From a virus, in the IMG/VR virus record IMGVR_UViG_3300048550_000419, positions 1-25,655 of that record: a DNA stretch of 25,655 nucleotides. One strand, 5' to 3'. Below the pieces are notes generated by a model. The model was given only the letters and a program-made list of their open reading frames with translations. It searched no databases and was not told the DNA's origin. The position numbers and the translations under genes are program-made. Positions 52-18,100 of this stretch are shown one piece after another (positions within the stretch are counted from its first letter, which is position 1; each line of letters begins with the position of its first letter).

Positions 52-552
52 CTAAGCCCAAGCAATACTTATAACTTCTGTGGATACCGCCCATTTAATT
101 GTTTGCACTGTTCCTGATCTTACAGTCGAATAACTAAAACGATTGGTCGCTGTGAATGGTTGTATAGACCAAGATTCTCCCCCAGGGACATCGTGCTTGA
201 TAATCGTTAACATACTGGAAAGAACTGTAGTTGCTCCTGCGGGACCACAAAATACAACACTTTCTATTTTTCCTGAGTAAACTACTCCAGAAGGATTGAC
301 TCCAAGAAAATGACCGGTGATAAAATTAACTGTATTATTCTGAATAATAATTTGAGTCCCAACATCATCTAATTCTAGGGTTGCAGTATTTACTCCTCTC
401 AGAATATAATTTGTTGTTTTGCTATCTTGAAAAAATGCATTCTTCATCTCAATTGAATTGAGAGACATCGCATTATGCCCCTCATCAATATGAACTGTTT
501 CGTCTACAGAATATCCACCAAGGGATTCAAATTTTTGTATGTTTGTCGGCAT
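52..552 (-). CDS. Small structural-region protein of unknown function, 166 aa
   Basis: I do not recognise this protein. It starts one base after the TAA of the 1,431-residue fibre-like gene, so the two are almost certainly cotranscribed and perhaps translationally coupled. An AGGA lies 11 bases before the ATG, inside the last codons of the upstream gene. The sequence has no signal peptide and no clear membrane segment. From about residue 45 it alternates short hydrophobic and polar stretches, with many Thr, Ser, Val and Ile, suggesting a compact beta-rich fold. The C-terminus is hydrophobic and ends in Ile-Ala-Trp-Ala. Its place directly after a fibre-like gene suggests a minor virion protein or a factor for fibre assembly or attachment, but this is inference from position alone. 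A late-promoter-like element follows its stop codon, so it may end its transcription unit. Confidence 0.8.
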   Translation of the reverse strand: MPTNIQKFESLGGYSVDETVHIDEGHNAMSLNSIEMKNAFFQDSKTTNYILRGVNTATLELDDVGTQIIIQNNTVNFITGHFLGVNPSGVVYSGKIESVVFCGPAGATTVLSSMLTIIKHDVPGGESWSIQPFTATNRFSYSTVRSGTVQTIKWAVSTEVISIAWA

Positions 553-553
553 T

Positions 554-3500
554 TTATTTAATTTCCTGAATTAATACGGTTACATTAATAATATCAGCAA
601 CAGTGTGATCATCAGTTAATTCTATTGTAATTCTAGTTTCAGAAGATGCAGTAAAATCAAATGTTGCTGTATACTGATCTGCTGAAGTATTTAACGATCC
701 ATATTCATTATGAAAAATATCCACACCATTATCTATAACTGAATACTCGGTCATAGATTTTTTCCCGGAGTCTGATTTAGACATAACGGTTACTTTACAT
801 CCAGTTGAACTACTTGGATATAAAACTACAGATGAAGATTCTAATCCACCTTTATCTAATGTAAAAGTTGCTGTTCTTAGTTTATAATCAGCAAGTTCAA
901 ATTCTTTTAGTTCACCGTCAAAAATTTTAACACCATTAAAAGATCCTGTTCCAAATGTTGTATTGAGATATACATCACCTTGATTATCTAATCTTAATAC
1001 AGGATCAACATTTAAACCAGATGACAATCCAAGATCTAAGTATTGTTTTGTTGTGCTAATAAATGTAGAATTTACATCAGTGTTATCAATAGTGGTTGCA
1101 TTAGAACTTAAAGTTAATGTTTGAGTATCAAGAGAAAGACTAGTACCACCAGATGTTGTTATAGTATCAATATTGGTAAAGTCAAGAACAGTTTCTGTTA
1201 GTTGTAATGTGTTCGAGTTATTGTTGTAAAAATAAAGAATATTTTCATTTGCTGCAGGAGAAGTTTCGGGAATAATATACGTATTTCCATCAACGTCCCT
1301 AACTCCACCAAGAGAAGACCAGTTGGCACCACTATATCCTTCAAACTGAAGATTGTCAGTATTAAATCTGATAGAACCAGGTCCAGCAGGTGCAATAGAT
1401 TTTTGATTGTCGTTTCCAGCAGGAATTCTGAAGTGTGTTACAGAATTTACAATTACTTGTTTACCTGCGTTTGGTTGGATAATTAAATCTTGTACTTGAG
1501 TTGAAATTGTATTGTCATCTAATTTTAATTCTTGTCCGATAATTATAGGACAATCTTTATTAGGACCTACTCTAATTTCATCTACTTCATTAAAAATTAG
1601 TTCCGATACTGCTGTTTGAGAAAATGTTAGTTGTGCGCTTCCACTATTAGCGACACCCGATAAATGAATTGGTTCTGTTCCTTGACCACCCGTTGTTCCT
1701 GAAGATGTTACCTCATATAAATTGTTTCTGTACTTAATGTAAGATCCAATTACAACTGGAGTATTTGATGTAAAATTATTAAAACTTGGAATACCTAATT
1801 TTGGGGAAGATAATGTTTTTACTGCTTGGAATTGTAATTGATCTGTTGTTAACTTTAGGGTATTAGAATTGTCATTATAGAACCACAATGTATTGTCATT
1901 TGCTCCAGCAGTAAGTTCTGCTAAAATATAAGTATTGCCATCAATATCTCTAACACCACCTAAAGAAGACCAAGAAGATGTGGAAGCACTATAACCTTCA
2001 TACTGACTATTGTCTGTATTGAATCGTATAGCACCATTTTCAGCAACACCGGATCCAGGTCTACCTGATGTATCCCCAACAGGAACTACTAGAGCAGATA
2101 AAGAATCAATTTTTGTAACTTTGTTGGATGCTGGTTTTAAAACAAGATTATTTCCAGAAGTGGATATAATTTCATTGTTTCTTATTGTAATTTTATCATT
2201 AACATTTAAATCTGATAATATTTTTACATCACCAGAAGTTTCAATATTTCCAGAAGAACTTTCAATTGAGAATAAATTACCAACGTTAAAGAATACTGAA
2301 GTTATATCAACATCATATCCAGAAGAATTAATTGCAAAATTACTAGAAGAATTGATTGTGTTAATACTTGCAACAGAACCAGCAATATTAGGAGCAGTTA
2401 AAAGAGTAGGAACGGTTAGTGTACCAACTTCACCTGTAGTTACTGAAATCTCATTACTTGTTAGTTTTTTGTTATCAATACTAATAGAAACTATATTTGA
2501 TGATTCAACATCTGATAGCGTAATAGTAAATCCTGATCCAAAAACTTTTGGGTTGTTTAAGTCTATGGTTATTTGTGCTTCATTATTATCATCTCCACCC
2601 ATGTCTGGGTGGACTGCACAATAATAATATAAAGGCGAAGGTGTAGATGCAGTTGGCGTAATTTGACTATATCCAGATTCGTATACTACGTTATCTGTAT
2701 AAGCATATCCAGAAAAATCTAGATCAGCAGAACCAGATGAATCTGGAACTTTTGTTAAAGTAATATTAAATGAGTCAACAATACTTTCTACAAGTGTATC
2801 CGAACCAATAGTTCCAGCACCTTGTCCTCCACTTGCAGTACTAGTAACAATCATACCAACAAGAATTCCTGTTGTGCTCGTGAGAGTTACTGTTGTACTA
2901 TTAGTATCTAAAGTTGTTGACATTCCAGTAATACTACTGGGTGTGTGAGTTCCGTCTCTAAATTGGGAAAATCTAAATGGGTGCGATGTATTTTGGGGAT
3001 TGTTAAATTTGTAAGTGCTTCCAGCATAAAATACAAAATCTGGATGATATTGAACTCCTGATCCACTATCGACAAAATATTCATTTCTACCGCTAAAAGT
3101 GTTGACAGTATATACAGTTGCTGGAACTCCAACTTTTGCAACTGTGCTAGCATCATTAATATTACCTGTATCTGCACATACCAAAGACGTGATATTTCCA
3201 ATAGCAGATCTAATCGCCAAAACTTCAGCCGCGGATCCATCATCAGAAACACCACTTACAGTAATTTCTACATTATCTGCAGGAGTTGATCCACCAACAG
3301 AAGCACCCAGAAATGTAATTACTTCATCTTGGGCATATCCCACGCCACCCGCAGTTATTGTAGCTGAAGAAATATCACCACTAAATCCTCTTTCTATACT
3401 AAACACAGCATTAACACCAGAACCAGATGTTGTTCCTGTTAAATTTGCGTAAGTATTATTTGCTTCTGCGGCAATAGTTGTTTGTGTTGTAATGGAAGTG

Positions 3501-4849
3501 GATTGAATAACTCCACCTGGAATATACAAAGAATCACCAACTGATATGAAAGAAGTAGGAACAGTCCCATTAAAAGTAATAGTTGCAGTTGCGGAAACAC
3601 TTACTTGATATTCTACTGGTTGAACTAAATCAAATGACGATACTGTAAGTGTATCACCTTTAGCATATCCACTACCACCATTAGATACTCCTACTGTATC
3701 TACTGCTCCAACTTTATCAATAAGAAAAGCGAAAGATGTGCTAGGTGATCCATATGCTGGAGAAAAGTTTAAAACTGCTGATCCACTAGTATCTGGATTT
3801 CCCGATAATGTAATTGTTGTTCCATTTTTTTCAAAGACTGTTATACTTCCGCCAAGACCACCAATTAAAACACCAGATCCAGAAACTTGTGTTACAACAT
3901 AATTAACTTGAATTGCATCTGCTTGAGATTGCGTTACAGTAATATCTGTAGTTGCATTATCCAAAGTACATGATACACCAAGAACTGCTCCTGGCAAAGT
4001 TAACGTATCATTTACAAGATATCCAGTTCCTTTTTCTGAAAATTGAAATGATGATTCGTCAACTGTGCCGGGATTACTAGTAATAGTAAAACTAAATCCC
4101 CCACCGGATCCTCCAAGATCTGCATTACTGACAGAAAGAATATCTCCATTTTGATATCCTACACCAGAATTTGAAATAGTAACTCCAGTTACTTCACCCG
4201 CATTTACATTACAACCAAATGTTGCTCCCGATCCGTTTCCCCCAGTAAATGGAACATCACTATAGAGACCATCCGAGTATGAAGATCCTGCATTTGTAAC
4301 ATCACCTTCAATATCAATAACTTGAAAATTTATAGTTGCTCCAATTCCATTTCCACCAGATACTGGAATTGCCGCATATGAACCCGGAATAAAACCTGTT
4401 CCATAGTTAGTGATAGATCCCGTAAATGATTCAATTGAGATGTTGATTAATCCATTAATTCCAGAACCGCCAATAACAGAAACATTGGAATACGTTCCCG
4501 GATCGTAATTGTCTCCGCTATTATTGATAGTTATAAATGAACTTGATATTTCATTCTTAACAAAATTAACATCGTTAAAAAATTTGTTATCTTGATTGTT
4601 AAAAGTAGCAATAAGTTTGGTGTTTGAAATTACACCAATTGTTTTTGATTCTGGTCTAAAAAAACCAGTATCGTCATCATTTGTAAAAGCCAAAGACGGA
4701 ACTGTTTTAGTACCATCTCCTAGTTTTAAATTGCCCGTAGCAAGATCACTGCCACCAGCAGTAACATTAAAAATTTGAGAACCAATTTCATTAATTTTGA
4801 CCCTTTGTTTTTCAAAGGTATCAGTTCTAGCGACATTAATTGCTGGCAT
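554..4849 (-). CDS. Modular tail-fibre-like virion structural protein, 1,431 aa
   Basis: This is probably a peripheral baseplate or tail-fibre protein that faces the host surface. The N-terminus (residues 5-60) has ARTDTFEKQRVKINEIGSQ and then NDDDTGFFRPESKTIGV, patterns common at the start of phage fibre-like proteins. Residues 110-213 hold glycine-rich tandem repeats with a 38-residue period. Residues about 610-755 are cupredoxin-like, with SHPFRFS, DGTH and YYYCAVHPDMGG. Residues 918-1011 and 1136-1228 are two copies of one module containing RFNTDN, EGYS and SSLGGVRD. The last 130 residues look like a separate beta-sandwich with a CKVTVMSKSDSG segment. The start ATG overlaps the end of the 68-residue gene by 14 bases; upstream GAGAG is only a weak ribosome site. 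The 166-residue gene follows after one base. The exact virion location is unknown. Confidence 0.87.
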   Translation of the reverse strand: MPAINVARTDTFEKQRVKINEIGSQIFNVTAGGSDLATGNLKLGDGTKTVPSLAFTNDDDTGFFRPESKTIGVISNTKLIATFNNQDNKFFNDVNFVKNEISSSFITINNSGDNYDPGTYSNVSVIGGSGINGLINISIESFTGSITNYGTGFIPGSYAAIPVSGGNGIGATINFQVIDIEGDVTNAGSSYSDGLYSDVPFTGGNGSGATFGCNVNAGEVTGVTISNSGVGYQNGDILSVSNADLGGSGGGFSFTITSNPGTVDESSFQFSEKGTGYLVNDTLTLPGAVLGVSCTLDNATTDITVTQSQADAIQVNYVVTQVSGSGVLIGGLGGSITVFEKNGTTITLSGNPDTSGSAVLNFSPAYGSPSTSFAFLIDKVGAVDTVGVSNGGSGYAKGDTLTVSSFDLVQPVEYQVSVSATATITFNGTVPTSFISVGDSLYIPGGVIQSTSITTQTTIAAEANNTYANLTGTTSGSGVNAVFSIERGFSGDISSATITAGGVGYAQDEVITFLGASVGGSTPADNVEITVSGVSDDGSAAEVLAIRSAIGNITSLVCADTGNINDASTVAKVGVPATVYTVNTFSGRNEYFVDSGSGVQYHPDFVFYAGSTYKFNNPQNTSHPFRFSQFRDGTHTPSSITGMSTTLDTNSTTVTLTSTTGILVGMIVTSTASGGQGAGTIGSDTLVESIVDSFNITLTKVPDSSGSADLDFSGYAYTDNVVYESGYSQITPTASTPSPLYYYCAVHPDMGGDDNNEAQITIDLNNPKVFGSGFTITLSDVESSNIVSISIDNKKLTSNEISVTTGEVGTLTVPTLLTAPNIAGSVASINTINSSSNFAINSSGYDVDITSVFFNVGNLFSIESSSGNIETSGDVKILSDLNVNDKITIRNNEIISTSGNNLVLKPASNKVTKIDSLSALVVPVGDTSGRPGSGVAENGAIRFNTDNSQYEGYSASTSSWSSLGGVRDIDGNTYILAELTAGANDNTLWFYNDNSNTLKLTTDQLQFQAVKTLSSPKLGIPSFNNFTSNTPVVIGSYIKYRNNLYEVTSSGTTGGQGTEPIHLSGVANSGSAQLTFSQTAVSELIFNEVDEIRVGPNKDCPIIIGQELKLDDNTISTQVQDLIIQPNAGKQVIVNSVTHFRIPAGNDNQKSIAPAGPGSIRFNTDNLQFEGYSGANWSSLGGVRDVDGNTYIIPETSPAANENILYFYNNNSNTLQLTETVLDFTNIDTITTSGGTSLSLDTQTLTLSSNATTIDNTDVNSTFISTTKQYLDLGLSSGLNVDPVLRLDNQGDVYLNTTFGTGSFNGVKIFDGELKEFELADYKLRTATFTLDKGGLESSSVVLYPSSSTGCKVTVMSKSDSGKKSMTEYSVIDNGVDIFHNEYGSLNTSADQYTATFDFTASSETRITIELTDDHTVADIINVTVLIQEIK
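1168..1432 (-). repeat. Internal module copy B of the fibre-like protein
   Basis: This is the second copy of a duplicated module, at about residues 1139-1227. It carries RFNTDNLQFEGYSGANWSS, then SSLGGVRDVDGNTYI, then LYFYNNNSNTLQLT. The match to copy A is strongest over the SSLGGVRD-DGNTYI core, where nearly every residue is shared. It is about 120 residues downstream of copy A within the same reading frame. Confidence 0.85.
1817..2092 (-). repeat. Internal module copy A of the fibre-like protein
   Basis: This is the first copy of the duplicated module, at about residues 920-1011. It carries RFNTDNSQYEGYSASTSSW, then SSLGGVRDIDGNTYI, then LWFYNDNSNTLKLT. The encoding DNA has diverged from copy B mainly at third codon positions over the conserved core, indicating an old duplication kept under protein-level constraint. 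Confidence 0.85.
2595..3055 (-). other. Cupredoxin-like stretch with candidate copper ligands, split by an insert
   Basis: This lies within the 1,431-residue protein, about residues 599-752. FVFYAGSTYKFN is followed by SHPFRFS (His623) and DGTH (His635). After about 75 residues of a different character comes a Tyr-rich strand and YYYCAVHPDMGG, with Cys744, His747 and Met750. An early His plus a late Cys-x2-His-x2-Met resembles the type 1 copper site of cupredoxins. Plastocyanin instead has Cys-x2-His-x4-Met. I recall similar SHPF ... YYYC-x2-H-x2-MGG patterns in marine phage structural proteins. Copper binding is inferred, not shown. Confidence 0.6.
2707..2936 (-). other. Ser/Thr-rich module inserted in the cupredoxin-like stretch
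   Basis: About residues 639-714 read as a self-contained Thr/Ser/Val-rich unit: STTVTLTSTTGILVGMIV, then TLVESI, then SGSADLDFSG. A comparable pattern occurs in the gp7-like protein (SKTVTVSNTDNLAVGMHI near residue 2150). It falls between DGTH and the final ligand strand of the cupredoxin-like stretch, so it seems to be an insertion there. The boundaries are approximate. Confidence 0.5.
4210..4520 (-). repeat. Glycine-rich tandem repeats, 38-residue period
   Basis: Three consecutive units in the fibre-like protein begin NYDPGTYSNVSVIGGSG, GFIPGSYAAIPVSGGNG and SYSDGLYSDVPFTGGNG. By direct counting, the first-to-second and second-to-third spacing is exactly 38 residues (114 bp). Each unit has Gly-x-Tyr, a hydrophobic strand, GG(S/N)G and a beta-rich tail. 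The repeat then degenerates into GVGYQNGD-type units. Such repeats commonly form elongated beta shafts in phage fibres. Confidence 0.8.
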
Positions 4850-5042
4850 TTTTTATTAACTCTCTAAGTAGGAATTTAATTTCAGAGACTTCATCCTTCA
4901 ACATATTTATGTCGTCCAACGCGGAATTCAGCTGTCGCTGCTTGCGTCTTGCTTGGATAGCAGAATCGCTGTGATTGACTATGGCACCTGAGGTCTCGTC
5001 TCTGACAAGACCATCATGCCCTTTGACTTTAATATAACCCAT
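4836..5042 (-). CDS. Small conserved coiled-coil protein, 68 aa
   Basis: This short protein begins MGYIKVKGHDGLVRDETSGA and then turns basic (ARRKQRQ, residues 31-37). Residues 38-63 have hydrophobic residues at L38, L42, I45, L48, V52, I55, L59 and L62, close to a heptad pattern, so the C-terminal half should form a short coiled coil. I recall similar small proteins with a G-H-x-x-LVRD start and an EIK-x-LLREL end in marine T4-like phages, without known function. It starts 9 bases after the stop of the 2,706-residue gene and overlaps the start of the fibre-like gene by 14 bases, so the three are probably co-expressed. No good Shine-Dalgarno sequence is visible. Placement suggests an adaptor or assembly role, but that is inference. 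Confidence 0.85.
   Translation of the reverse strand: MGYIKVKGHDGLVRDETSGAIVNHSDSAIQARRKQRQLNSALDDINMLKDEVSEIKFLLRELIKNASN
4904..4911 (-). promoter_or_regulatory. Possible internal late promoter CATAAATA
   Basis: The minus strand reads CATAAATA inside the 68-residue gene, about 55 bases before the ATG of the fibre-like gene. It fits the NATAAATA form of the T4-type late promoter, and the distance suits a short leader. It also encodes Asp-Ile-Asn in a conserved small protein, so the match could be chance. Confidence 0.4.
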
Positions 5043-5051
5043 ACGCGGAAA

Positions 5052-8000
5052 TTAGAATGCAGCAACTGCACGAATATCTTGAATCTTCGGAACATATGCA
5101 GGATCATTTCCTTTCATAACAATTTTAATTGCAAATGACGAGAACTCTGGGAGATCTGCTACGCTGTAAGTAATATCCTGATAAGATTCTTGCTTCTCAA
5201 TTATACTCGAAATGCTATTTTCAGGAGTAGCAATTTCTAGAGAATCAGGTTGACCGGTGCCATTGAAGTATTCCCAATCAATATCCTCAAAGTTTTCATT
5301 GCTAGATGCTTTTTTGAATTTGTATAAAACTTCGATATCAGAAAGATCTCTGGCATTTAAAGTTAAATGTATATCAATCGCAGTAGCTGGATTTGTGATA
5401 GAAACTTCTTTTGTAATATACTTAGCAACAGAAGAACTATTCTTAGAAGTAAGTTCAGAAACAAATTCAGAACCATTGCTATATGTCATAGTGCCAACTT
5501 CCAAGAAGAAGGCTTCATCAGCAGGTTGGTTCGGATATGATACAATATCACCTACACGGAAAATATCAGAAACTTGATCAACTAACTGTGCTTTTCTAGC
5601 ATATGCATCACTATCTCGAATCCTTCCATTAAAATCACCGGCAATAGGTTGAGTGTCAGTTCTTAATGTCAATTCTTGTGTTCTATCATTCCAAATTACT
5701 GCTTTACCAGTAATAACATTATCATAAGTTTCTGTTGGTGTAGCTGGATTTCTTGCTGTAATTGTAGAAGCATCAGGAATTTCCTGGAAGTTTTGAATTG
5801 GATTTGTATCGACAATTGCCAATGGAACTTCTACTCCATTTACAGTTTCAACCAAAGTTGGTTGATTGCCTAAAGTAATTCTTTCTCCTTTCTGGAAGAA
5901 CTGTGAAGTCTTAAGTTTTACCCAAACTGTAGATCCAGAAACTTTTGCAATCTTACCAACTGCTTTAGAGTTATATCCCTCAATTGCTTGATCATTCTGA
6001 ACAGTCACTCCAGTGATATTGGAAATATTAAATGAGTAGATGGGATAAAATTCAATGATTTGATCTTTTCTTCCATAGCGATCCTCTTGTCCATATGCTT
6101 TATCTATCCTATTAGTGGATGTTTTTACACTAGAAGTTGATAGATCCACAACAGGAGAAAGGTGTGATACTGTAGAAGATAGTTGTAATTTATATGACAG
6201 AGAATTGGTTAGATTATTTAATATTTCATTAATATTTGAAGAAATGAATTTTTGATTAGCGAAGTAATGAGGTTCATTCAAGAAAGTTTTTTCGTAATCA
6301 GATTGATCATATGAATCATAATTAATTTTGGAAGCATCTACTGCAATAACATTCGTAGTTTTTACCATAGATTCTATCTTAGTTCCCGTAAAAGATAGAT
6401 ATTGCATCTGTGGATATAAAGTTTCATATTTTCTGTTATAAGAAGAATAAACTTTATCTCCACCACCTATAATATTTCCAGAAGCAGCAATAGATGATGT
6501 AATGTCATACGTATCAACTCCGCTATTAGAAATCTGGAACAACGTGTTATTTAAAACATCTGATGTTATACCACCAGTTTCTAGTGCTGTTCTATAGAAA
6601 ACATAAGAATCTCCAAGAGTTTCAAATCCGTGATCTCTGTGATTAACACGTACAATACTGTTATTGTTTCTAAACAACAACGAAGTTGCATTTGTGTTTG
6701 CTGTAGCACTGGTTTGGAATGGATTCTTCTGTAGAAGTTCGTATCCCAAATCTTCATTTGTAAGAATTAACTCTGCAGTTCTTGTAATATCAAACTCTGC
6801 TCTATACATTTTGAACTTGATATCTTCATAATTATCTTCTGTCCAATTCTCAGTATTCTGAGATCTATAAACAGAACCAAGTGAAGGTTGTGTAGTGATA
6901 ACTGTGCTTGTAGCAATATCTGTTTCACCAAGTCGCGACACCCACAGTTCGTAATCAGTTGAATCTGTTTCAACAGCAAGAGCATATTCGGTATCATTCT
7001 GTAGATATACAGGATAATCAAAAGCAAAGTGTGTTGGTATTGTGGAGTCTGTGATCTCTTCAGAATCAATTGCTACACCCATTCTAACTGCTGGGGTGTT
7101 AATCTCTATCTCTGTCTCAATAACACACCCTCCAGCGCCATTTCCGACGCCTCTGACGACTACTGATGGTGGTTCTGTATATCCAAAACCAGGTAGAGAA
7201 ATTTCTGTGTTGTAAATTTTACCACCAGAAACTTCTACTCGTGCAGTTGCAACCGATCCACCAGAAAGTTGTGGACTTTCAATTGTGATAATTGCGCTAT
7301 CATAATTTAATCCGGGATTCAAGATTTTAACAGCAGAAACTTTTCCACTATCTTTTGCAATAGTTAATACCGAATTTGTTCCTTGTGTGTTATTTGATAA
7401 CGTTACTGATGGTATGATCAGATTTTCATTTTGATTAAATGAACGACCATTGTGGTTATCTAAAACCATAGTGTAAACTTGTTCGTTTGTTAGTAAGTAT
7501 CTTCCTGAAGACGAAGGAACTAGATCAACACCATTTTTGTCAATGATTTTAGAAAGAGGACCACTTGCGGCAGAAGTCGAACCAGTAATTGATTCTCCTT
7601 GAGTCAAGTAAACATTTCCGTTAGTGAAAATCTTAAGGAAAGTAAATGGAGATATAACTTTTTCTGTACCAGGAATAATATTTTTTCCTGGTTTATCAGA
7701 ATCAACATTAGTAAGATAAACTTTGATTGGAATTCTATTACTCTTATTACTAAAGAATAAATCAACACCAGTAGTAAATACTCCACCATCATAGTTTTCA
7801 ACTTTGAAAGTTTGTGCTAATGGATTAGGACGAACTGGATTATCAGTATTGCTATCTACAAACTGCACACCTTCATTTGCTTTAAAGAAAGATGGTTTTG
7901 TTGAAACAATTGTTCCTGGATTTTCTGGCAAAATACCAGTTGCATAATACTTAACTTCTGCATAAGTATCTACAGTAGATTTGTCTTCGTCTGTGGAACT

Positions 8001-11000
8001 AGATGTAAATCTAAATGTTTTGATACCCGCTGCAATTTTTACTTCTTCTCCAGAAGAATCGTATGAAATAGTATCTACATCTCCCGTCCAAGTTGTATTT
8101 TCTTCCGGTGGAAGTCCAGCAGGAATAATAATAATACCACTAGCATTTCCATCATCATCTGTAGTTACTGGTCCATTAAAAGCAGACGGTGAATTACCAG
8201 CAACCCCAGTAAATCTGAGATCTGGATTTACCCAACGACTAATGTTTCTACCTTCCAAAAAGACAGAAATAGTTGTATTTGGTTTTAGTCTTTTAACAAC
8301 AAACTTAACTGGAATACTTCTAGCAAAAAATTGTAGAGCAGAAGATACGGCATTTCCTCTTACAGTTTTAGTTTGAACTCCTTTTGCAACATCATTATTT
8401 TTTGGACTGATGTTTGAAGAACTAGCAGTAGATGCTAGTTTTACTTTTGACTGAGCATCCTGACTATTAACATTGCCAAGAGAATTAATTGAAGAGAATG
8501 ATGGTGATGAACCAACCCAGTTAATTACAAAAGAATTATACAAACTAGAAAAACTTTCTTTTACATTTTCTTTGGATAAGAAAATCTTGTATAGATCAGT
8601 ATTAGTATCTACAATTAGTGGTTCTTCTGTGGTATCATACCATTGATCGATACTTGGAGAGAGCACAGAATCTCCAACATACTGGAGGACAACAAATGGA
8701 TTTGGATTAAGAGTCTTTGATGCAAAACTATTACCGATAAATTCTAAACTAGAATATGGTAAAGTAACTACATTTCCAGATTTTTTATATCCAGAAACAA
8801 CTCTTTGATCTTCTCTGGTATTTACTTCCTTGAGTATAAAAGAATCTTCTTTCGATTGTGGGCGCAAGACTGCTTGCTGAGAATCAATGGAACACTGGTA
8901 ATCTAAAGAAGTTAAATTGCCAGTTCTATGCGATTCAAAATTGTCTACCAAGAAACCAGATTTAAATCTGTCAAATCCAATTTCATCCTTAACTTGCATA
9001 TTAAGAGCTTGTTGCTCAAGAACACTAAGAGTGGTATAATACTCAAGTCTCTCAATACGCTTCTCCAATTTACCAATATCGCGCATTGTATAACGGCGAT
9101 TATCAACTGGAGTAATTCTTACATCTTTACTATTTTGTGTAAACGCAGGAATGTATGCATAGAAAAGAGGAATTGCATCATCGATAAGATCTGGTTTGGA
9201 TGGATTGAGTGAGGAATTTCCTTCCTTAACAATAAATTTACCATTCTTATTGAGGAATACACCATCAATTCTATCAAGATATTGTACTTGACTGAACGAT
9301 AAAGTATATTCTAAATTGGTATCAGATGCGGGACTTGATGCAATAATAGCACCAGAACCAGCAAATGGACCAACTGTTCTTGATAAAGACGCTGTATCCT
9401 GGAAACCAGCAATAGTTGCAGTGGTATCTACTTTAGGTCTGAAATCTAAAATATTTTTAAGATTGACAATACCATAAACAGATGAATTGAACGATGGAAT
9501 TTCATCTTCCGTCACACCAGCTTCATGAATATAACTATCAACTGTACAGAAATCTCCAACAGAATGCTCGAAGTAATCGAAAGCAATTAGAAGTTGTCCA
9601 GTAGTCTGTTCATATCCTGGTTTTAGAACTAATCTAGAAACATCATAAACAGTGTCTCTTTGACCATCATCAAATGTAAATCTATCTGTGACATCAGAAC
9701 CAGAAATTAACTCTCCAGCAGAGTTTGCTTGGGGTGGTTGAGTAGCACTACCTTCATAAACATATCTAAGTTTGTACGCATCAGAATATGAAAGTGTTTC
9801 AACAACTTCATTATCATAATTAACACCCCTAAATGGAATTACTCTATCACCACTAGAAGTAATTACAATTCTTCTATTTTCTACAGAAGTTTTTAATCTT
9901 GGTTTTGCATTTTCTACTTCTAATGTAGCAGTCAGTTTTAACTTTGGATAAGTTCCATTTGATGGAATTGTTCCAAAATATGTTGTTGGTAATTGTAAAC
10001 TAATACTTCCAGCAATAAGTCCACTGCTAGTATCAGTAGATGAACTAATTTCTACTGCATCCTTATCAATATAAACAATATCTCCAATGTTTACAACAGG
10101 AGAATCGCCGGGATCTAGAACAGTAATAATATAATTTTTTTCAGTAAAAGCAGCAAATCTTTGTGTGCCAAATGGCAACTGAGCAGCAAAGGTAATAATG
10201 CCACCACCAGTAGATGCAGTAGTTACAAAATCTCTGCGGAAGAAATACTTAATCTTAGTTTCCTCTGGTGTTGCAGCAATCTGCTTAATTTGATTGCTTC
10301 CAGTTGGATAAATTAAAGTTCCTTGGTTTGCACTATCTACTCTAGGACGCAAACGTACAATGCTAGTATTAACAACATCACCAGGAAGCATTGTATCCAA
10401 ATAGATTCTGGTCTTAAATGCTCCTTGTTTTACTGTTGCATATTGGATAGTTGAACGTACTAAATTGTTATCTTCATCAGAGAACTGAATGATATCACCC
10501 TGCTGCAGTACATTACTAGCATCTGCATTGAAACTGGTAGATTCAATAAAATTATATCCTTTAGATCCAAAGAAAGTAAAATCAGTAATAGATTTAATTT
10601 CTGCAAATTCTGAATCATCAACTACAACATCTGCAGTAAATACGTTTTCTCCAGCAGATCCATACTTAGCAGAAACTGATTTTACATTTTGTGGAGTATA
10701 TGTTGTTACTGCATTTCTAGTCAACACTGCTAAAATAACTGCACCTTGAGCGGGTGTTGCAGAACCATCAGGTTGTTTTACAGTTATTGACGGTGGTTGT
10801 GCATACTCTGTTGATAGAGCAGACTTATTTTTAACTTCTGCTCTATAGAAAGCACCGCTGTTTAATCTTGCTAGATCAACAACAGAGTTATCATACTCAA
10901 CGCCATTAACTACAATATTTGAATTGTCTGCATATCCCAACCCAGGATTGGTTACAATAAAATGAGATACTGTATTATCTTTTGCAATTTTAACTACATT

Positions 11001-13172
11001 TCCACCTTCATCCTTAATAGATTCTCCTGACTGAAATCTACCAGATAGAGTTTTTATGAACAAAAGTTTTCCTACGGAATATACTCCAGAAGGACTACCT
11101 TCAACAACTCCATACGCTCCAGATTTTAAACCAAATACATATTTACCAATTCCAAATGCTCCTGCTGCAGGAATGGTATCTAATAAAATTTTGGTAAAAA
11201 ATTCTGGATCAAAATAAGATAATCCAAATGTTGCATTGTAAGTTGTTGATCCATCAGATTGACGACCCTGTGATAAAATAATATCAGAGTCATTATTAAA
11301 TCCTGATCCTGTTTTCTTAAGAGCAAAATTATTTGGTTTTGCTCTACCAATAACAGGTGTAATTGTTTCACTGTAATCTACAATAAAACCCAGTTCATTA
11401 GAGTCGGAAGATGCATCTGAATTAGCAATAAATATTTTTCTTTGGTAATTTGAGTCTCCTAAATCATACTCAAGAAATAATAAATCTAGATCATCTTTCT
11501 TACCAAGAATTGTTAATTCTAGAAATTTAACGGAGTCATTTGCATTAATTAATGGTTTGTTTACTTTTGCAAAAGCAAGTCCTTTTACGGATGAAACAGA
11601 AGTTGCAGCACCAGAATCATTTCTAGTTTTAATAAAATGAACTTCTCCAAGTAAAGTATCAAAGTTTGCATCTGTAATACTTGAAAGTGGTTGGGTAGTA
11701 TTAGTTACTTCAACAACAATAGTTTTTACAGCATCATCAGAACCAAAAACTTTTCCTCTTCTATCTGTGGTTTGTCTATGATCAGTAGGAAGTTCCGAGT
11801 CTCCTAATCCCACAGACCCATCATTAAATGTGGAATATAAGTTAATGTATGGATATGCAGTAAGCTCTGCTCCTTCTTTGTTGAGGGGAACACTACCATA
11901 TACATTAGTAATATTTAAAGTCGGCAAAGACTTAGTTTTTAATCTAATATTATCACTAGTAAGACTTGCTCTTGCCTTATTAATTTCTAGGTACTTAGTT
12001 TCTTTATTGACAATTTCATATCCTTTGATGTATGCTTTGCCTGCGCTGACACTAGCTAACATCTTTCTTGATGCTTCTCCCTCAGTTAGACCATTGTAAA
12101 GTCCAAACGCATCTGCTTTATAAAGTCCGCCGTTTCTATTTTTCTGTGCATATTCTCTGACATCAATATCAAAGTTGCCAACAACATAATCTCCACTCTC
12201 ATCAAACGTTCTACGCGCAAGAGTTTGTTCAATTAAACTATAATTAGTTGGCGATACCTTTCTTTGTACTGCACCTCTTAACGTAGTGAGTAGTTGAATG
12301 AAATTTTTATCTGTAGTTTGATTTAATTCAAACTTAACCAATTTCAATGAAATTTTTAATCTATGTGCTCCTGGAGCAGTGTAATTAGAAGACCCGATAG
12401 AATTATCATAAAGACTAGCATCTTCCTCTGGAGTGATAATTTCTTCTTGAATTTTAAATCCTACTTTTGAAGAAGGACTATCATAGTAATCATCGATTAC
12501 TAGAATTTCTTTATTGCATCTTACAAAATAACCATTTACAAAATAGATACCTTCTTCTACCTCCACAGCAGAAGCAAATCCCATTGCCGGACTTTCAATT
12601 GAAGTTATGTCTCCAGTATCTGGATTTGTAAGTTGAATACTGGTGGGAAGTACACTACCGTCAGTTCCAACAACCAATAATGGAGTATTGATACCATCAA
12701 CAACTTCTAAGGTTTCTCCTTGACGAAATTTTGATTCATTGTTAGAATTGCCACTATTTAAATAATTTACATAAACAGTGTCAGCAGTAGTTTCTGTTGC
12801 TAACTTTGTTTCTAGAACAGTAGAAATTACTCCTGAATTTAATCCACGTAATTGTCTACCAATTAGTTGACTGATATCGTATTTTTTATATACAATATCA
12901 CCATCTTCTTCAACAGCAACTTCTGACACAGAAGATAACTTAACGTAATCTAATTTTGTGTTAAGTCCGACTTCTCCAGGTACAACCAAGTCTCCTTGTT
13001 TGAAAGCATACTTACCAAAACTTTCAACCTGATTCTGGAGAATAGATTGTATTTGTGTTAATTCTCTGCTCTGGATAGAGTACCCAGGACGGAATAGAAT
13101 TTTATAAAAATTCTTACTTGCGTCGAAGTCCTCGTAATAAGGATTTACATTAAGGTTTGTCTTCTGTGGCAT
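5052..13172 (-). CDS. Giant baseplate/fibre structural protein with DUF4815-like features, 2,706 aa
   Basis: This is a virion protein at the position of T4 genes 9-10, most likely a peripheral baseplate or fibre-anchoring component. Residues 12-67 (FDASKNFYKILFRPGYSIQ, SRELTQIQSILQNQVESFG) match the N-terminal pattern I associate with DUF4815 phage proteins. Residues about 1362-1437 contain a predicted coiled coil, KLEKRIERLEYYTTLSVLE, followed by DRFKSGFLVDNF and a Leu-Arg-Pro. Residues about 1617-1651 have KFVVKRLKPNTTISVFLEG. Near 1782 is NPLAQTFKV, and near 2060-2112 are EYALAVETDS, WVSRLGETDI and SLGSVYRSQN, a module seen in many marine phage tail proteins. The C-terminus is a beta-rich domain. 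The start is supported by a late promoter 37 bases upstream and GGCGGAA before the ATG. T4 gp10 itself (602 aa) is far smaller and I see no direct match to it. Confidence 0.88.
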   Translation of the reverse strand: MPQKTNLNVNPYYEDFDASKNFYKILFRPGYSIQSRELTQIQSILQNQVESFGKYAFKQGDLVVPGEVGLNTKLDYVKLSSVSEVAVEEDGDIVYKKYDISQLIGRQLRGLNSGVISTVLETKLATETTADTVYVNYLNSGNSNNESKFRQGETLEVVDGINTPLLVVGTDGSVLPTSIQLTNPDTGDITSIESPAMGFASAVEVEEGIYFVNGYFVRCNKEILVIDDYYDSPSSKVGFKIQEEIITPEEDASLYDNSIGSSNYTAPGAHRLKISLKLVKFELNQTTDKNFIQLLTTLRGAVQRKVSPTNYSLIEQTLARRTFDESGDYVVGNFDIDVREYAQKNRNGGLYKADAFGLYNGLTEGEASRKMLASVSAGKAYIKGYEIVNKETKYLEINKARASLTSDNIRLKTKSLPTLNITNVYGSVPLNKEGAELTAYPYINLYSTFNDGSVGLGDSELPTDHRQTTDRRGKVFGSDDAVKTIVVEVTNTTQPLSSITDANFDTLLGEVHFIKTRNDSGAATSVSSVKGLAFAKVNKPLINANDSVKFLELTILGKKDDLDLLFLEYDLGDSNYQRKIFIANSDASSDSNELGFIVDYSETITPVIGRAKPNNFALKKTGSGFNNDSDIILSQGRQSDGSTTYNATFGLSYFDPEFFTKILLDTIPAAGAFGIGKYVFGLKSGAYGVVEGSPSGVYSVGKLLFIKTLSGRFQSGESIKDEGGNVVKIAKDNTVSHFIVTNPGLGYADNSNIVVNGVEYDNSVVDLARLNSGAFYRAEVKNKSALSTEYAQPPSITVKQPDGSATPAQGAVILAVLTRNAVTTYTPQNVKSVSAKYGSAGENVFTADVVVDDSEFAEIKSITDFTFFGSKGYNFIESTSFNADASNVLQQGDIIQFSDEDNNLVRSTIQYATVKQGAFKTRIYLDTMLPGDVVNTSIVRLRPRVDSANQGTLIYPTGSNQIKQIAATPEETKIKYFFRRDFVTTASTGGGIITFAAQLPFGTQRFAAFTEKNYIITVLDPGDSPVVNIGDIVYIDKDAVEISSSTDTSSGLIAGSISLQLPTTYFGTIPSNGTYPKLKLTATLEVENAKPRLKTSVENRRIVITSSGDRVIPFRGVNYDNEVVETLSYSDAYKLRYVYEGSATQPPQANSAGELISGSDVTDRFTFDDGQRDTVYDVSRLVLKPGYEQTTGQLLIAFDYFEHSVGDFCTVDSYIHEAGVTEDEIPSFNSSVYGIVNLKNILDFRPKVDTTATIAGFQDTASLSRTVGPFAGSGAIIASSPASDTNLEYTLSFSQVQYLDRIDGVFLNKNGKFIVKEGNSSLNPSKPDLIDDAIPLFYAYIPAFTQNSKDVRITPVDNRRYTMRDIGKLEKRIERLEYYTTLSVLEQQALNMQVKDEIGFDRFKSGFLVDNFESHRTGNLTSLDYQCSIDSQQAVLRPQSKEDSFILKEVNTREDQRVVSGYKKSGNVVTLPYSSLEFIGNSFASKTLNPNPFVVLQYVGDSVLSPSIDQWYDTTEEPLIVDTNTDLYKIFLSKENVKESFSSLYNSFVINWVGSSPSFSSINSLGNVNSQDAQSKVKLASTASSSNISPKNNDVAKGVQTKTVRGNAVSSALQFFARSIPVKFVVKRLKPNTTISVFLEGRNISRWVNPDLRFTGVAGNSPSAFNGPVTTDDDGNASGIIIIPAGLPPEENTTWTGDVDTISYDSSGEEVKIAAGIKTFRFTSSSTDEDKSTVDTYAEVKYYATGILPENPGTIVSTKPSFFKANEGVQFVDSNTDNPVRPNPLAQTFKVENYDGGVFTTGVDLFFSNKSNRIPIKVYLTNVDSDKPGKNIIPGTEKVISPFTFLKIFTNGNVYLTQGESITGSTSAASGPLSKIIDKNGVDLVPSSSGRYLLTNEQVYTMVLDNHNGRSFNQNENLIIPSVTLSNNTQGTNSVLTIAKDSGKVSAVKILNPGLNYDSAIITIESPQLSGGSVATARVEVSGGKIYNTEISLPGFGYTEPPSVVVRGVGNGAGGCVIETEIEINTPAVRMGVAIDSEEITDSTIPTHFAFDYPVYLQNDTEYALAVETDSTDYELWVSRLGETDIATSTVITTQPSLGSVYRSQNTENWTEDNYEDIKFKMYRAEFDITRTAELILTNEDLGYELLQKNPFQTSATANTNATSLLFRNNNSIVRVNHRDHGFETLGDSYVFYRTALETGGITSDVLNNTLFQISNSGVDTYDITSSIAASGNIIGGGDKVYSSYNRKYETLYPQMQYLSFTGTKIESMVKTTNVIAVDASKINYDSYDQSDYEKTFLNEPHYFANQKFISSNINEILNNLTNSLSYKLQLSSTVSHLSPVVDLSTSSVKTSTNRIDKAYGQEDRYGRKDQIIEFYPIYSFNISNITGVTVQNDQAIEGYNSKAVGKIAKVSGSTVWVKLKTSQFFQKGERITLGNQPTLVETVNGVEVPLAIVDTNPIQNFQEIPDASTITARNPATPTETYDNVITGKAVIWNDRTQELTLRTDTQPIAGDFNGRIRDSDAYARKAQLVDQVSDIFRVGDIVSYPNQPADEAFFLEVGTMTYSNGSEFVSELTSKNSSSVAKYITKEVSITNPATAIDIHLTLNARDLSDIEVLYKFKKASSNENFEDIDWEYFNGTGQPDSLEIATPENSISSIIEKQESYQDITYSVADLPEFSSFAIKIVMKGNDPAYVPKIQDIRAVAAF

Positions 13173-13272: not shown

Positions 13273-15084
13273 TCAGAATTCGATGACTAGTTTGATATCT
13301 TCAATCTGGTCAGGAGCACGAGTGATCAAACGACGGTTCTCTTGGTAGATAACATCGCCAGAGTTATTCTTAATTTCTGCGGCTGCTAAACCAGCAGTAA
13401 ATGATACACCCAGAAGTGTGCTTGCATATGTTGTATCAACATTACCTGCAGCAGCGGAAAGAACACCAGAAATAGCATTAGAACCATTACTTTCAAATGC
13501 TTGGACTACACCTTGATCAACGTGTGCATCAACAGTTTGAATATACTTAAGAACACCTGCAGTAGAAGAACCACTGTCTAGAACCCAAGAAACAACAGTT
13601 CCTTTTGCAGTGCCACCAGTTACAGTCTGAGAAATTGTTTCATCAGGAATAAAATCTGCAGTTGCTCCAGTAATCTTAACTGCTTTTAATCCAGATAGTG
13701 TATCTTGAGTAGCAAAGGTGCTTGTGCCTGCGCGAACGGGATCCTTGATAATACCAATACGACGGAAGTCGTTATCAACAGGGAAGTCTCCAGAACCTTC
13801 TGAATAGGTAAGGCGAATGTTAGTCATTACACGCTTGCCATTCAACTCTAGTTCATGATCGAAACCATGACCACCTTCAGGAGGCATCACAACCTCAATA
13901 GCACCCGTTGCGTCTGCAGCGGTAGCAACTGCTGTGGTTAAACCAGCATCAGAGAAGAGGTTGCCGTTTCCTAGAAGGACATTGGCATAGGTGTAATCCT
14001 GACCTCTTGCTTGGACACTAGCAGATGTAATAGTGCCAGAACCATCGGTAGCAAACTCAATTACTCCTCCAGTTCCATCACCCTTGATGCTAGTAAATAG
14101 TGTTTGTGAAGCAGGTAGGTTAACACCACCATCTTCAATAAGAGCGACATCAATTGCTCCATCAACAGCAGCACCAGTAACAGCAGTACGGGTATTGTTG
14201 GCAGGAAGAACAATCGGCATGAAGTCCGAAGATAAGAATCTTAGAACATCATCAGTTGGCATGGTGTACATGTACTTCCAGATGTATCCTGCACCAGATG
14301 TTTCAGTATAAAGACCGGTGCCAGAAGCATAGTTGCCACCACTAGTTTTTGGTTCTTCAGTGGCATTTTGACCAGATGCATTAGCAACGTTTTCTCCGTT
14401 GTAGAGGCACTTAAAGACTTCGTAATCAGAATTCATTACGTAGAACTTAGCATCGGAAATGCTTGTTTGGTTTGTAGCAGTCTGCTTACCAACTTGTCCA
14501 CCACCACCAGGGGTAGCAGAATAGTCTGGTTTCCACATGTCAAACTTAGGGTTGGCAACTTGATCCCAGTTATAACGACGGATAACTGTTCTCGCGAATG
14601 CATCAGTAATACGCTTGGCAGCAATGATTTCGTCGTATACGTTGAGTTTCTCTCTCTGGTTGTCCAAAGGAAGAGGGGGAATATCCTCTGTTGCGTAGCG
14701 ATAAACACCAGATTGCGCTGTTGCAGCAGTATCAGATGAACCACCGTCTGCAGTTTCTTTTAGACTTGAACCAATGGGGGGAACAGAGTTTGTTCCGTTG
14801 CTGCCAAAAACGTCGGTTAATAAAAGGGCACTATCATAAACTTCGGCAACTGTTGCACGGAAAGCAGTAGAACCATACGTTCCAACATACACTTCGTTTC
14901 CAACAGTAAAGTTAGTTGAAGATTTTGAATAAACTTCGATATACGCTTTCCATGGTTGGGGTCTTCCAACAAAGAAATACATTCTGGTGCGCTCGGCACT
15001 GGTTTCACTTGGACCTTCTGTCAAGGATTCCAAGAATTGTTTAGCGTTAAAAATTCTAAACTTATCTGAGATAATAGCAGCCAT
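13273..15084 (-). CDS. gp8: Baseplate wedge protein gp8, 603 aa
   Basis: In T4, gp8 dimerises within each baseplate wedge and contacts gp6, gp7 and gp10. The C-terminus here, IYQENRRLITRAPDQIEDI followed by KLVIEF, lines up with the end of T4 gp8 (YMENRPPIIMAMDQTEEIN, recalled from memory). Residues about 148-185 (TDAFARTVIRRYNWD) and 260-290 (GAGYIWKYMYTMPTDDVL) also correspond to T4 segments. The N-terminus MAAIISDKFRIFNAKQFLES is typical of cyanophage gp8. The protein is about 270 residues longer than T4 gp8 (334 aa); the extra sequence includes glycine-rich modules at about 330-380 and 460-560. Two overlapping late promoters lie upstream and a terminator follows, so it may be its own transcript. 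Its DNA is visibly richer in G and C than the flanking giant genes. Confidence 0.94.
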   Translation of the reverse strand: MAAIISDKFRIFNAKQFLESLTEGPSETSAERTRMYFFVGRPQPWKAYIEVYSKSSTNFTVGNEVYVGTYGSTAFRATVAEVYDSALLLTDVFGSNGTNSVPPIGSSLKETADGGSSDTAATAQSGVYRYATEDIPPLPLDNQREKLNVYDEIIAAKRITDAFARTVIRRYNWDQVANPKFDMWKPDYSATPGGGGQVGKQTATNQTSISDAKFYVMNSDYEVFKCLYNGENVANASGQNATEEPKTSGGNYASGTGLYTETSGAGYIWKYMYTMPTDDVLRFLSSDFMPIVLPANNTRTAVTGAAVDGAIDVALIEDGGVNLPASQTLFTSIKGDGTGGVIEFATDGSGTITSASVQARGQDYTYANVLLGNGNLFSDAGLTTAVATAADATGAIEVVMPPEGGHGFDHELELNGKRVMTNIRLTYSEGSGDFPVDNDFRRIGIIKDPVRAGTSTFATQDTLSGLKAVKITGATADFIPDETISQTVTGGTAKGTVVSWVLDSGSSTAGVLKYIQTVDAHVDQGVVQAFESNGSNAISGVLSAAAGNVDTTYASTLLGVSFTAGLAAAEIKNNSGDVIYQENRRLITRAPDQIEDIKLVIEF

Positions 15085-15144: not shown

Positions 15145-18100
15145 TTAAATTGTAAACGGAATCAATTCTTCTGTGGCGTTAATGGAATTTGGTCCATTGT
15201 AGAGAGTACAACCAGTAAATTCGGTTGATGACTTTCCGGTATATTGAATTACAGTTCCACCACTGGTAAATAAGTATCCTTCACTTGGGAAGTATGTAGT
15301 ATCTTGAACAACGATGTTTCCGCCAATAGTTCCGGTAGAAGAACTAATAGCAACTGGATTCTGAATTGATGGTGGCATCAAATTAAATTTAGCACCTGAG
15401 AGAGTATAACTAGATTTACCTCTTTCCTGGAAATCTTTTATAGTAAGTGCTCTAAAGTAAATATCAATTTCTGAAAGTGTTAATCCAGAAACACCTGCTG
15501 CTCCGTCATCAAATATACCCTCAAAATGTCCTATGGTATGACCAACATTGGTTTTAGTATAGTTTCCTATGTAATCTACATCAAGACCAAATACCGAGTT
15601 ATTGATGTAGATTATAGTTCCATCACGTTTCACAACTCCGTAATCATCAAGTAGATTTACAAATCCATTCAGTCTAGTGCCAACTGGGTCGCTAATAAAG
15701 ATACTCTCTTGATATCCATCAACTACACCACCAGGAGGTGGAGTTATGGATACTTCAGTTGCTGCTTTTTGGAGATCAAGTTGAGATTGAACAGATTGTA
15801 ATGTGTTAATAATTTCTACATCTGAAGTAGTTGTAAAAGAAGATACAATATTAAATGTTGGTTCTAATTTATACCTAATTTGAGACTCAATTGCAGAAAC
15901 AGACTCTACATTAAATTGTTTTTGAACTTCAACAACTATTTGCTTAGTGATAGTCTTGATATCAGCAGGCGGTGTTATAAACTGTTTCTGTGATGCGCCA
16001 CCACTAGAAATTCCAGAAGCAATGTTGACTGTAACAAGTTGAGACTCGGACTCAACAATCGAGATACCCGCAGAAGCAACAGATACTGGATCGGGAACTT
16101 GTCTAATAAATGTGCCAGCGTTCCATGCTTGTGCAGAAGTATTATCAAGACCACGCTCAACCATTAAGAAACGATCATTTAACTTGCGTAGATAACGTAC
16201 AATCTCTCCTCCAACCAGCAGGTATCCATTAGTACTAAACTTGCTTGTATCAGCAACGTAGATAATAGTATCTGTTGGAGATAGAGGTGCTTGTAGGAAG
16301 GATCCAGAAGCAAAGTAGTTAACATTATTGAGATAATTGTTCTCAACAATAGTCGTAAACTTATTGGTAATCTCCTTAGTTGCAGATATAGTAAGAGTAG
16401 ACTCAGACTCGATGTCAACAATATATGGAGTCTCAACAAAGAAGTAAATTTCAGTGCTATTATGTTGCGTATCAATAGGTGCTACTTGATCATTCAGTTG
16501 TTTTTCTGTTCTGATTGTATCCAATCCACCAGTCAAATCCGAACTAACTTCTAGTGCAGCAGGATATATTTCAGCAGTAATAACTTTGTCAATATTGACA
16601 GGACTATCAACTAATGTTGACGAAAGAGATGTTACATCAACTGCTTCATTTCCTAAGATACTGACAGTGGAATATATAGAAAATCCAATTGACTGCTGTA
16701 TGTTTATTTTGACATCGATTAAAGAAACACCAATATCAGTATCTTCTAATACATCATATCTTCTAGCGACAACAACTTTTGGTGCCTTAGTATATCCAGA
16801 TCCACCTGTAATTAGTTCAACACTAATTACTTGACCTTTGCTTACAATTACTTGTGCTCTTGCACCACCACCATTGCCATCTTCTGATAAGAAGTTAATT
16901 ATGGGTGGTGTATAATATTGATATGCAGTAGGTTGTGTAATTGGAGCATAACTGCGCTTATTCCAATCGAGTCTTACAACTGATCCATTTTCAACTACTG
17001 CGACAATAGAAAGTCCTTCACCTCTAGTGATACCACTATATGGTCCAATATTAACTTGTCCATAAAAAGAATTGGAAAGTTGTTCTCCTAGTCTCTGTTC
17101 TTTAGATGTAAGAACTGAAGGTAGTTCATTAATTTTTCTAAAACCTTCCTCACCTTCAACACGGATCAATGAACCATTTGAAATACTAACAAATGGATTT
17201 TTGTATGTCTTTCTCCAATAAGTTCCACGCCAGTTTTGATCAATACCTCTCAATAAAAGATTATTATCTTCATTTTTTTCATACGTTATGCTACTTCCAG
17301 CAAGTGTAAATGAAACGTCAGTGTTTAACGAATATCTTCCCTTAACAGCAAATGTTATTGGAATATTTTCAATCAATTCTGCTTTGTATCCAAAACATTC
17401 AAATGTCAGTGTAGATCCATTACTACGTGGAGTATTAATTTCTCCAATAATATTATAAGTACCATCTGGTCTGATTTGGAAAGCTTGAATAGGAGCTCCG
17501 CCTTGATTGCCCATCCATGCTCTCAATTCAAAAGCAGGAAGACCACTTGTAGTTTCCAATACTACTACAGAGTTTGCATAATATTGATCTACATTATAAT
17601 CATATAGATTTAGAATTTGACCGACATCTCTACCATAAAGGTATCGCATGTCAACTTTCATTTGTTGTGTAACAGAAAATTCAAAGAAAATATTTGGTCC
17701 AGATACAGTATAAGAAATACCTTCTTTCTGTAATACTCCATCAACAAATACTAATAGATAATCTGGTTCTTCGATATTTGCAACCGTAAGGTCTTCTAGA
17801 TCCAGAATAAGGAAAGGACCACTCCTTATATTATTAATCAAATTAGGATCGATGGTGAGTCTTTTGTAATTACCAACACCAATACCAATAATTTTTTCTA
17901 CTGCTGTAGGTTCCCCAAGAGTTTTGGCACCTTCATATTGATCCCAAATTGGTGCTACATCAAACACTAATTTATTTGGAACAACAGTTTTATCAATATA
18001 ATACGAATCATCACCAGGATAATTTGCATTATACTTAGTTTCTTGTAAAACAGCATTAATTGTAATTAAAAGATTTTCATCTTTTTCTGTGGATACTGCT

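Follow-up and report, generated by a model that had tools for sequence, protein, structure and literature searches.

We describe a cupredoxin-like module within a large structural protein of a T4-like phage, and give a probability of about 0.6 to the whole reading proposed here: a cupredoxin module in a baseplate-region virion protein, with a working copper site of the type 1 kind that would load its metal and have a stabilising role. The window, i.e. the whole stretch of DNA analysed, is a virus record of 25,655 bases whose ORF and family matches indicate a T4-like phage close to the cyanophages (Kyanoviridae). Its large ORFs are all encoded on the minus strand, and their matches are to phage families, mostly structural ones (Table 1).

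Table 1. Features of the window, with the evidence for their assignment
Feature	Position	Strand	Evidence
1431-aa ORF carrying the domain, T4-like (Kyanoviridae-type) virion structural protein	554..4849	-	phrog_6005 E=0; phrog_32294 baseplate wedge 1e-57
166-aa virion structural protein, neighbour	52..552	-	phrog_5449 E=1e-70
68-aa virion structural protein, overlaps start of 1431-aa ORF	4836..5042	-	phrog_473 E=4e-20
2706-aa DUF4815 protein, neighbour	5052..13172	-	PF16075 E=2e-47
Baseplate wedge gp8, neighbour	13273..15084	-	phrog_438 E=1e-172; PF09215 (Phage-Gp8)
3496-aa virion structural protein with YHYH domain, neighbour	15145..25635	-	phrog_4406 E=0; PF14240 E=1e-29
Cupredoxin-like domain, part 1, residues 579-640, holds H623	2930..3115	-	masked-profile match 579-653; model and fold match
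Insert of ~75 residues (approximately 641-715), a beta domain of its own with a likeness to phage tail proteins	2705..2929	-	fold match
Cupredoxin-like domain, part 2, residues 716-766, YYYC-x2-H-x2-MGG loop	2552..2704	-	masked-profile match 713-759
Candidate ligand His623	codon 2981..2983	-	
Candidate ligand Cys744	codon 2618..2620	-	
Candidate ligand His747	codon 2609..2611	-	
Candidate ligand Met750	codon 2600..2602	-	

The phrog_6005 profile covers most of the 1431-aa protein, with its best stretch at residues 211-1431; the PHROGs category of this family ("virion structural protein") is head and packaging, and the second-best family is a baseplate wedge. The gene adjoins those for gp8 and for the DUF4815 protein, whose positional counterpart is annotated as gp7 in ACG-2014h and as DUF4815 in Sf-CH1b, and we therefore place the protein in the baseplate gene block, taking its membership of the virion from annotation. 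Its orthologues show a comparable gene order in cyanophage records. The original prediction spoke of a fibre-like protein; with these two families and gp8 adjacent, it is not clearly a fibre. The YHYH domain of the 3496-aa neighbour lies at residues 754-855; such a domain was present in 15 of 15 cyanophage records searched (open frames 2162-4448 aa long) and in none of 14 control genomes.

The domain had been predicted at 2595-3055, i.e. residues 599-752; taken whole it spans approximately residues 579-766 (2552-3115). The four residues proposed as ligands are where they were said to be, on the minus strand, and the texts SHPF and YYYC-x2-H-x2-MGG are exact in the translation: His, Cys, His and Met follow each other in the order of a type 1 copper site, the last three in a short loop. 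The predicted insert is there too. It is a phage tail-type beta domain lodged within the cupredoxin-like domain, common to all 14 aligned sequences (the window and 13 cyanophage orthologues). The whole protein contains 6 Cys, 8 His and 6 Met; the chance expectation of C-x2-H-x2-M in it is 0.00014, and the motif was seen in 2 of 20,000 shuffles. The same motif with an upstream His is repeated across many phage proteins of differing length, and its occurrence in the window protein is, judged on sequence, more than chance.

Two AlphaFold2 models were built from alignments of unchanged natural sequences: A2 (58 sequences), whose first sequence is L080, a relative naturally lacking the insert, and A1 (97 sequences), with the window domain first and its insert retained. 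Model A2 (pLDDT 95.5, pTM 0.87) gave ten PDB matches at E<=0.001, four chains of the three-domain nitrite reductase HdNIR and six of rusticyanin. In a second look its best match was 2dv6 residues 24-131 (Z 9.6, rmsd 2.5, 97 aligned), and all 50 matches listed were copper proteins; some of these are laccase domains that have no type 1 site, and the list therefore supports the fold rather than the site. In the L080 model, H54 comes before strand 56-59, C105 ends strand 100-105 and M111 comes before strand 113-117, i.e. the ligand loop lies between the last two strands and the upstream His before a middle strand, as in cupredoxins. Model A1 (pLDDT 84.7) was weak by Foldseek alone (best E 0.007, to rusticyanin, with no match at E<=0.001), which we attribute to the insert; in the second look both parts of the domain align with the same nitrite reductase N-terminal domain (Z 8.3, rmsd 2.8, 96 aligned). 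The insert matched 8eci_1 (model residues 67-145, Z 8.1) and the tail tube protein 9n71_A (68-146, Z 7.4). In both models the beta-sandwich matches solved cupredoxins, and on these predicted structures the fold of the window domain is almost certainly the proposed one.

An ordinary Ig-like tail domain with a chance motif, a reading already disfavoured, is correspondingly very improbable. Beta-sandwiches are common in tails, and most other rows for A1 lie at Z 6-7, a range where unrelated folds fall too; but the chance expectation of the motif is low, and the domain matches copper proteins specifically, while the matches of the insert in that model are to phage tail proteins.

At E<=10 the window domain has no Pfam match, and a PDB sequence search with the single window sequence gave nothing relevant. 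The Copper-bind profile (PF00127, cut-off 21.2 bits) scores L080 at 14.7 bits and has no match to the window domain, which is therefore not filed in that family. Its matches among the A2 relatives are weak (10 of 58, best E 5e-4), and CBM_4_9, an unrelated family, performs similarly (5 of 58, best 4e-4); NCBIfam gave weak plastocyanin matches for 2 of the 58, alongside single matches of unrelated families. The profile run against PDB sequences returned seven matches, namely five plastocyanins (best E 0.61) and two antibody fragments. Direct hhalign comparison of the phage profile with five PF00127 proteins gave a probability of 7%, with the His unaligned, and of 5% when L279, taken for azurin-like, was included; L279 upset the alignment and was for that reason left out. 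Three Flavobacteriaceae domains pass the Copper-bind cut-off (27.3-27.6 bits), and their alignment reached an hhalign probability of 94.7% with A2, with H, C, H and M in register, and 95.4% with the five stronger PF00127 proteins, figures that are single comparisons of small alignments. In a nine-sequence search with the ligand columns masked, a match persisted for one of the bridging sequences (E 0.001) and was lost for the other two (E 0.11 and 0.15); the bridge thus leans on the ligands.

Further cupredoxin-like domains and a possible distant relative came up: (i) A second family occurs in the same cyanophages, typically with HPFYVK...YYYICxFHxGMxG, in frames of ~680-980 aa (L318, L319, L320, L321, L322, L328, L329). 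Of nine copies read, counting that of P-HM1 in L326, eight keep the ligands; the S-B43 copy (L323) has lost them. The five copies scanned score 15-20 bits against Copper-bind, which is under its cut-off, and the window-type copy of P-HM1 had no match in the same scan; one copy compared with PDB sequences gave 23 weak matches, 21 of them blue-copper entries (best E 0.014). (ii) P-HM1 has a 1842-aa frame (L326) that holds both cupredoxin-like types, and a 4448-aa YHYH frame (L325) that holds two further copies, one of them without ligands. (iii) PF25489 (At5g54830-like) matches 3 of the 58 A2 domains (best E 1.5e-6), a possible tie to a plant protein domain.

A count of ligands is circular if the sequences were retrieved through a ligand motif; we therefore fetched 120 viral loci with a DNA pattern for EYTTGVT, which contains no ligand, and read their domain copies with a profile in which the four ligand columns were masked. 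The H-C-H-M set is complete in 104 of 112 site-spanning copies. In all of the other eight, C, H and M are absent together (six have none of the four ligands, two the His alone); no copy has C/H/M without the His, and none has part of C/H/M (Fisher 1.2e-8 for co-loss, not corrected for relatedness). Clustering at 60% identity gave 16 clusters, 11 all complete and five all incomplete (one of them His-only), with none mixed. Ligand columns are 93-95% conserved, and the Y42, L101, Y103 and P98 columns equally so; conservation by itself does not single the ligands out, and joint loss does. Loop-flanking aromatic and glycine positions are conserved as well in this set (Y103 95%, G112 94%). The 112 copies counted are those spanning the site among 119 that hold EYTTGVT; of the seven uncounted, L174 keeps the His and has lost the Cys, L192, L155, L148 and L149 have lost both, and L147 and L131 keep C-H-M, their His lying outside the aligned stretch. 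No copy qualified at three of the 120 loci (L140, L152, L167). With all loci pooled, part of them motif-selected, 246 of 255 copies are complete.

The window protein's own orthologues give a different picture. From 40 phage records matching the window domain 15 were taken, the remainder being mostly duplicates or like-scoring records of the same phages; ACG-2014i was omitted too. The protein set comprises the window and 14 orthologues. It excludes P-HM1 (L016), whose copy reads H plus C-x2-H-x3-M, and includes L009, which is absent from the orthologue alignment and whose residues were read from separate searches. The insert-bearing domain is complete in 8 of the 15 (window, L002, L005, L008, L010, L012, L014, L015) and incomplete in seven: L003, L009 and L011 keep the Cys and have a lengthened loop with a His and no Met, and L004, L006, L007 and L013 are without C, H and M. 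The upstream His is retained in all of the seven except L006, so that ligand loss in the orthologue set is not all-or-none. The candidate metal site is on this plain evidence dispensable in the window's protein family.

Five of the seven incomplete proteins (L004, L006, L007, L011, L013) have a second domain at residues ~245-360 with a complete set, its loop being C-x2-H-x4-M in L007. The arrangement is the same in all five, the C-terminal copy incomplete and the N-terminal copy with the full set, and Prochlorococcus phage Syn1 is a sixth such case; the pattern may stem from one event in a shared ancestor. A masked-profile search found no second domain in the eight complete proteins at a domain E below 0.1. 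When 15 whole phage records were searched by profile, the domain was found in all 15, as expected from how the records were chosen; every copy matched at E<=0.01 in S-B43 and S-PM2 is incomplete. In the cultured cyanophages S-TIM5, whose domain is insert-free, and P-SSM2, the sets are complete.

These counts bear on the option, left standing in the original prediction, of a vestigial fold, i.e. a cupredoxin scaffold whose ligands are kept by inertia or for packing. It fits some orthologues of the window protein: an incomplete set, seen in 7 of 15 proteins there and in 5 of 16 ligand-blind clusters, still goes with a recognisable domain. For the domain overall it is decidedly improbable in the face of a full set in most ligand-blind copies, the absence of C, H and M together in the others, and the retention of one full set by each of the five two-copy proteins.

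The lengthened loops of L003, L009 and L011, with Cys, a His and no Met, suit zinc better than copper, and the main rival is that the same His2-Cys-Met site holds zinc (or iron) in a purely structural role. Metal ions play a structural part in other phage tail proteins, and free copper is very scarce in the cytoplasm where phage proteins fold. However, Met is rarely used at zinc sites, and it occupies the fourth column in 104 of the 112 ligand-blind copies; the nearest folds, moreover, are blue copper proteins. We consider zinc unlikely. The candidate site probably binds a metal in vivo, and that this metal would be copper is slightly favoured.

By profile and pattern matches, the domain recurs in many ocean phages, in proteins of the tail and in further structural proteins. 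DNA patterns for YYC-x2-H-x2-MGG and for EYTTGVT each gave at least 120 matches in viral contigs, and 59 of the 120 EYTTGVT loci listed are common to the other listing; a copper-type centre on a virion appendage had been thought unusual, and with such counts the domain is common. Among 50,697 phage records, 40 match the window domain (Synechococcus and Prochlorococcus phages and cyanophages) and 53 the L080 domain, including three Pelagibacter and four Methylophilales phages; these 53 are annotated as tail, baseplate or structural (34) or as hypothetical or predicted (16), or have no annotation (3). The label "marine" comes from the named phages and genomes with the same domain, and not from habitat data of the window or the viral contigs. 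With the window domain alone as query, the only locus found was L001 in IMG/VR, identical over the domain. Six PHROG families (27200, 677, 30742, 708, 6005, 693) match 46-58 of the 58 A2 members; they are tail fibre, baseplate wedge, wedge-fibre connector and structural families, whose listed descriptions name no copper or cupredoxin, 27200 being without description. Predicted viral structures (BFVD) include 71 proteins matching at E<=0.001, and small "beta-sandwich proteins" of the giant viruses Pithovirus LCPAC302, LCPAC304 and Marseillevirus LCMAC201 are among the matches listed.

Relatives were also found in cells. The scan of bacterial genomes used a pattern that includes C, H and M, leaving the upstream His as the one unselected ligand, and covered the best 80 of 103 relatives; the His is present in 81 of 81 spanning copies. 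Some of these loci are likely phage or prophage contigs. A simple regular expression detects a lipobox-like N-terminus for 24 of the 81 copies, 22 of them with the domain C-terminal, and the bacterial carriers look exported. L221, L223, L225, L233 and L245 are among the ORFs of marine bacteria that begin with a lipobox-like stretch and carry the cupredoxin-like domain at the C-terminus. Cadherin was above its cut-off in all three carriers scanned (L223, L233, L245), in L245 barely (28.9 against 28.8 bits). The neighbours of these three are mainly metabolic, with a molybdopterin oxidoreductase near L223 and L233 and a MerR-type regulator near L223; no recognisable copper partner was found among the subset of ORFs scanned around them.

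Such carriers bring up an active role in redox or copper handling, i.e. electron transfer at the host surface, or scavenging or delivery of copper in infection. The full type 1 set, the conserved aromatic and glycine positions of the loop, the lipoprotein-like carriers in cells, and the oxidoreductase near two of the three cellular loci and the regulator near one of them would suit it; the lack of a recognisable copper partner in the ORFs scanned there, the placement of phage copies within large structural proteins and the loss of the set in part of the orthologues speak against it, and we think it rather improbable. We prefer a metal-hardened surface module to a redox carrier for two reasons: the domain is embedded in large proteins of structural or adhesin-like type and has no evident partner, and the site is missing from some lineages. 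Whether the role is mainly structural or adhesive rather than electron transfer is, in our estimate, evenly balanced.

For the favoured surface module, the following course may be envisioned. The apo-domain would fold in the host cytoplasm and take up copper once the virion reaches the periplasm, lysate or seawater. The bound metal would then join the Cys-His-Met loop and the last strand to the upstream His, and the domain would form a hardened, presumably surface-exposed module of phage structural proteins. The same role is possible at the C-terminus of the cadherin-type lipoproteins in marine bacteria.

We give even odds to the broadest reading, in which blue-copper-type centres, at about one complete copy per protein, are borne by baseplate, tail-fibre and other structural proteins of cyano-, pelagi- and methylophages, the module being common to cadherin-type lipoproteins of SAR86 and other marine bacteria, as a widespread and undescribed class of virion copper proteins. 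Should copper be bound, the particles of common marine phages would be carriers of copper proteins; this would link virus particles to copper in the ocean, and an effect of metal supply on adsorption or particle stability could be put to the test. A fold is now assigned to a domain hidden in many entries named "tail fiber", "virion structural" or "hypothetical", and through this domain structural proteins of phages are connected with lipoproteins that abundant marine bacteria encode. The fold itself is already known; the type 1 set in virion proteins is apparently undescribed, and in the open-access PMC literature we found neither a complete set in such proteins, nor its joint loss, nor its sharing with bacterial lipoproteins. 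PMC6934571, a paper on encapsulins, mentions cupredoxin and does not concern phage virion domains, and cyanophage virion proteomics exists (PMC3037559).

Among known systems, the best solved fold matches are the N-terminal cupredoxin domain of HdNIR from Hyphomicrobium denitrificans (2dv6, 6tfd, 6tfo) and rusticyanin (1rcy, 2cal). Both hold type 1 copper with an upstream His and a Cys-His-Met loop; their rows show 14-22% identity, and the former belongs to an enzyme and the latter carries electrons, neither being part of a virion. The spacing C-x2-H-x2-M is that of amicyanin. Cyanophages have a cupredoxin-fold copper protein in plastocyanin, which is soluble and serves photosynthesis. Its gene, petE, is named as cyanophage-encoded (PMC3037559, PMC2984593). 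The petE product differs from the window domain in that it is not part of a virion structural protein. The "Ferrojan horse" idea places iron on phage tails, i.e. metal on a tail appendage, with other folds; the window domain would be alike in having a metal on an appendage, and differs in its fold and in that the metal would be copper rather than iron.
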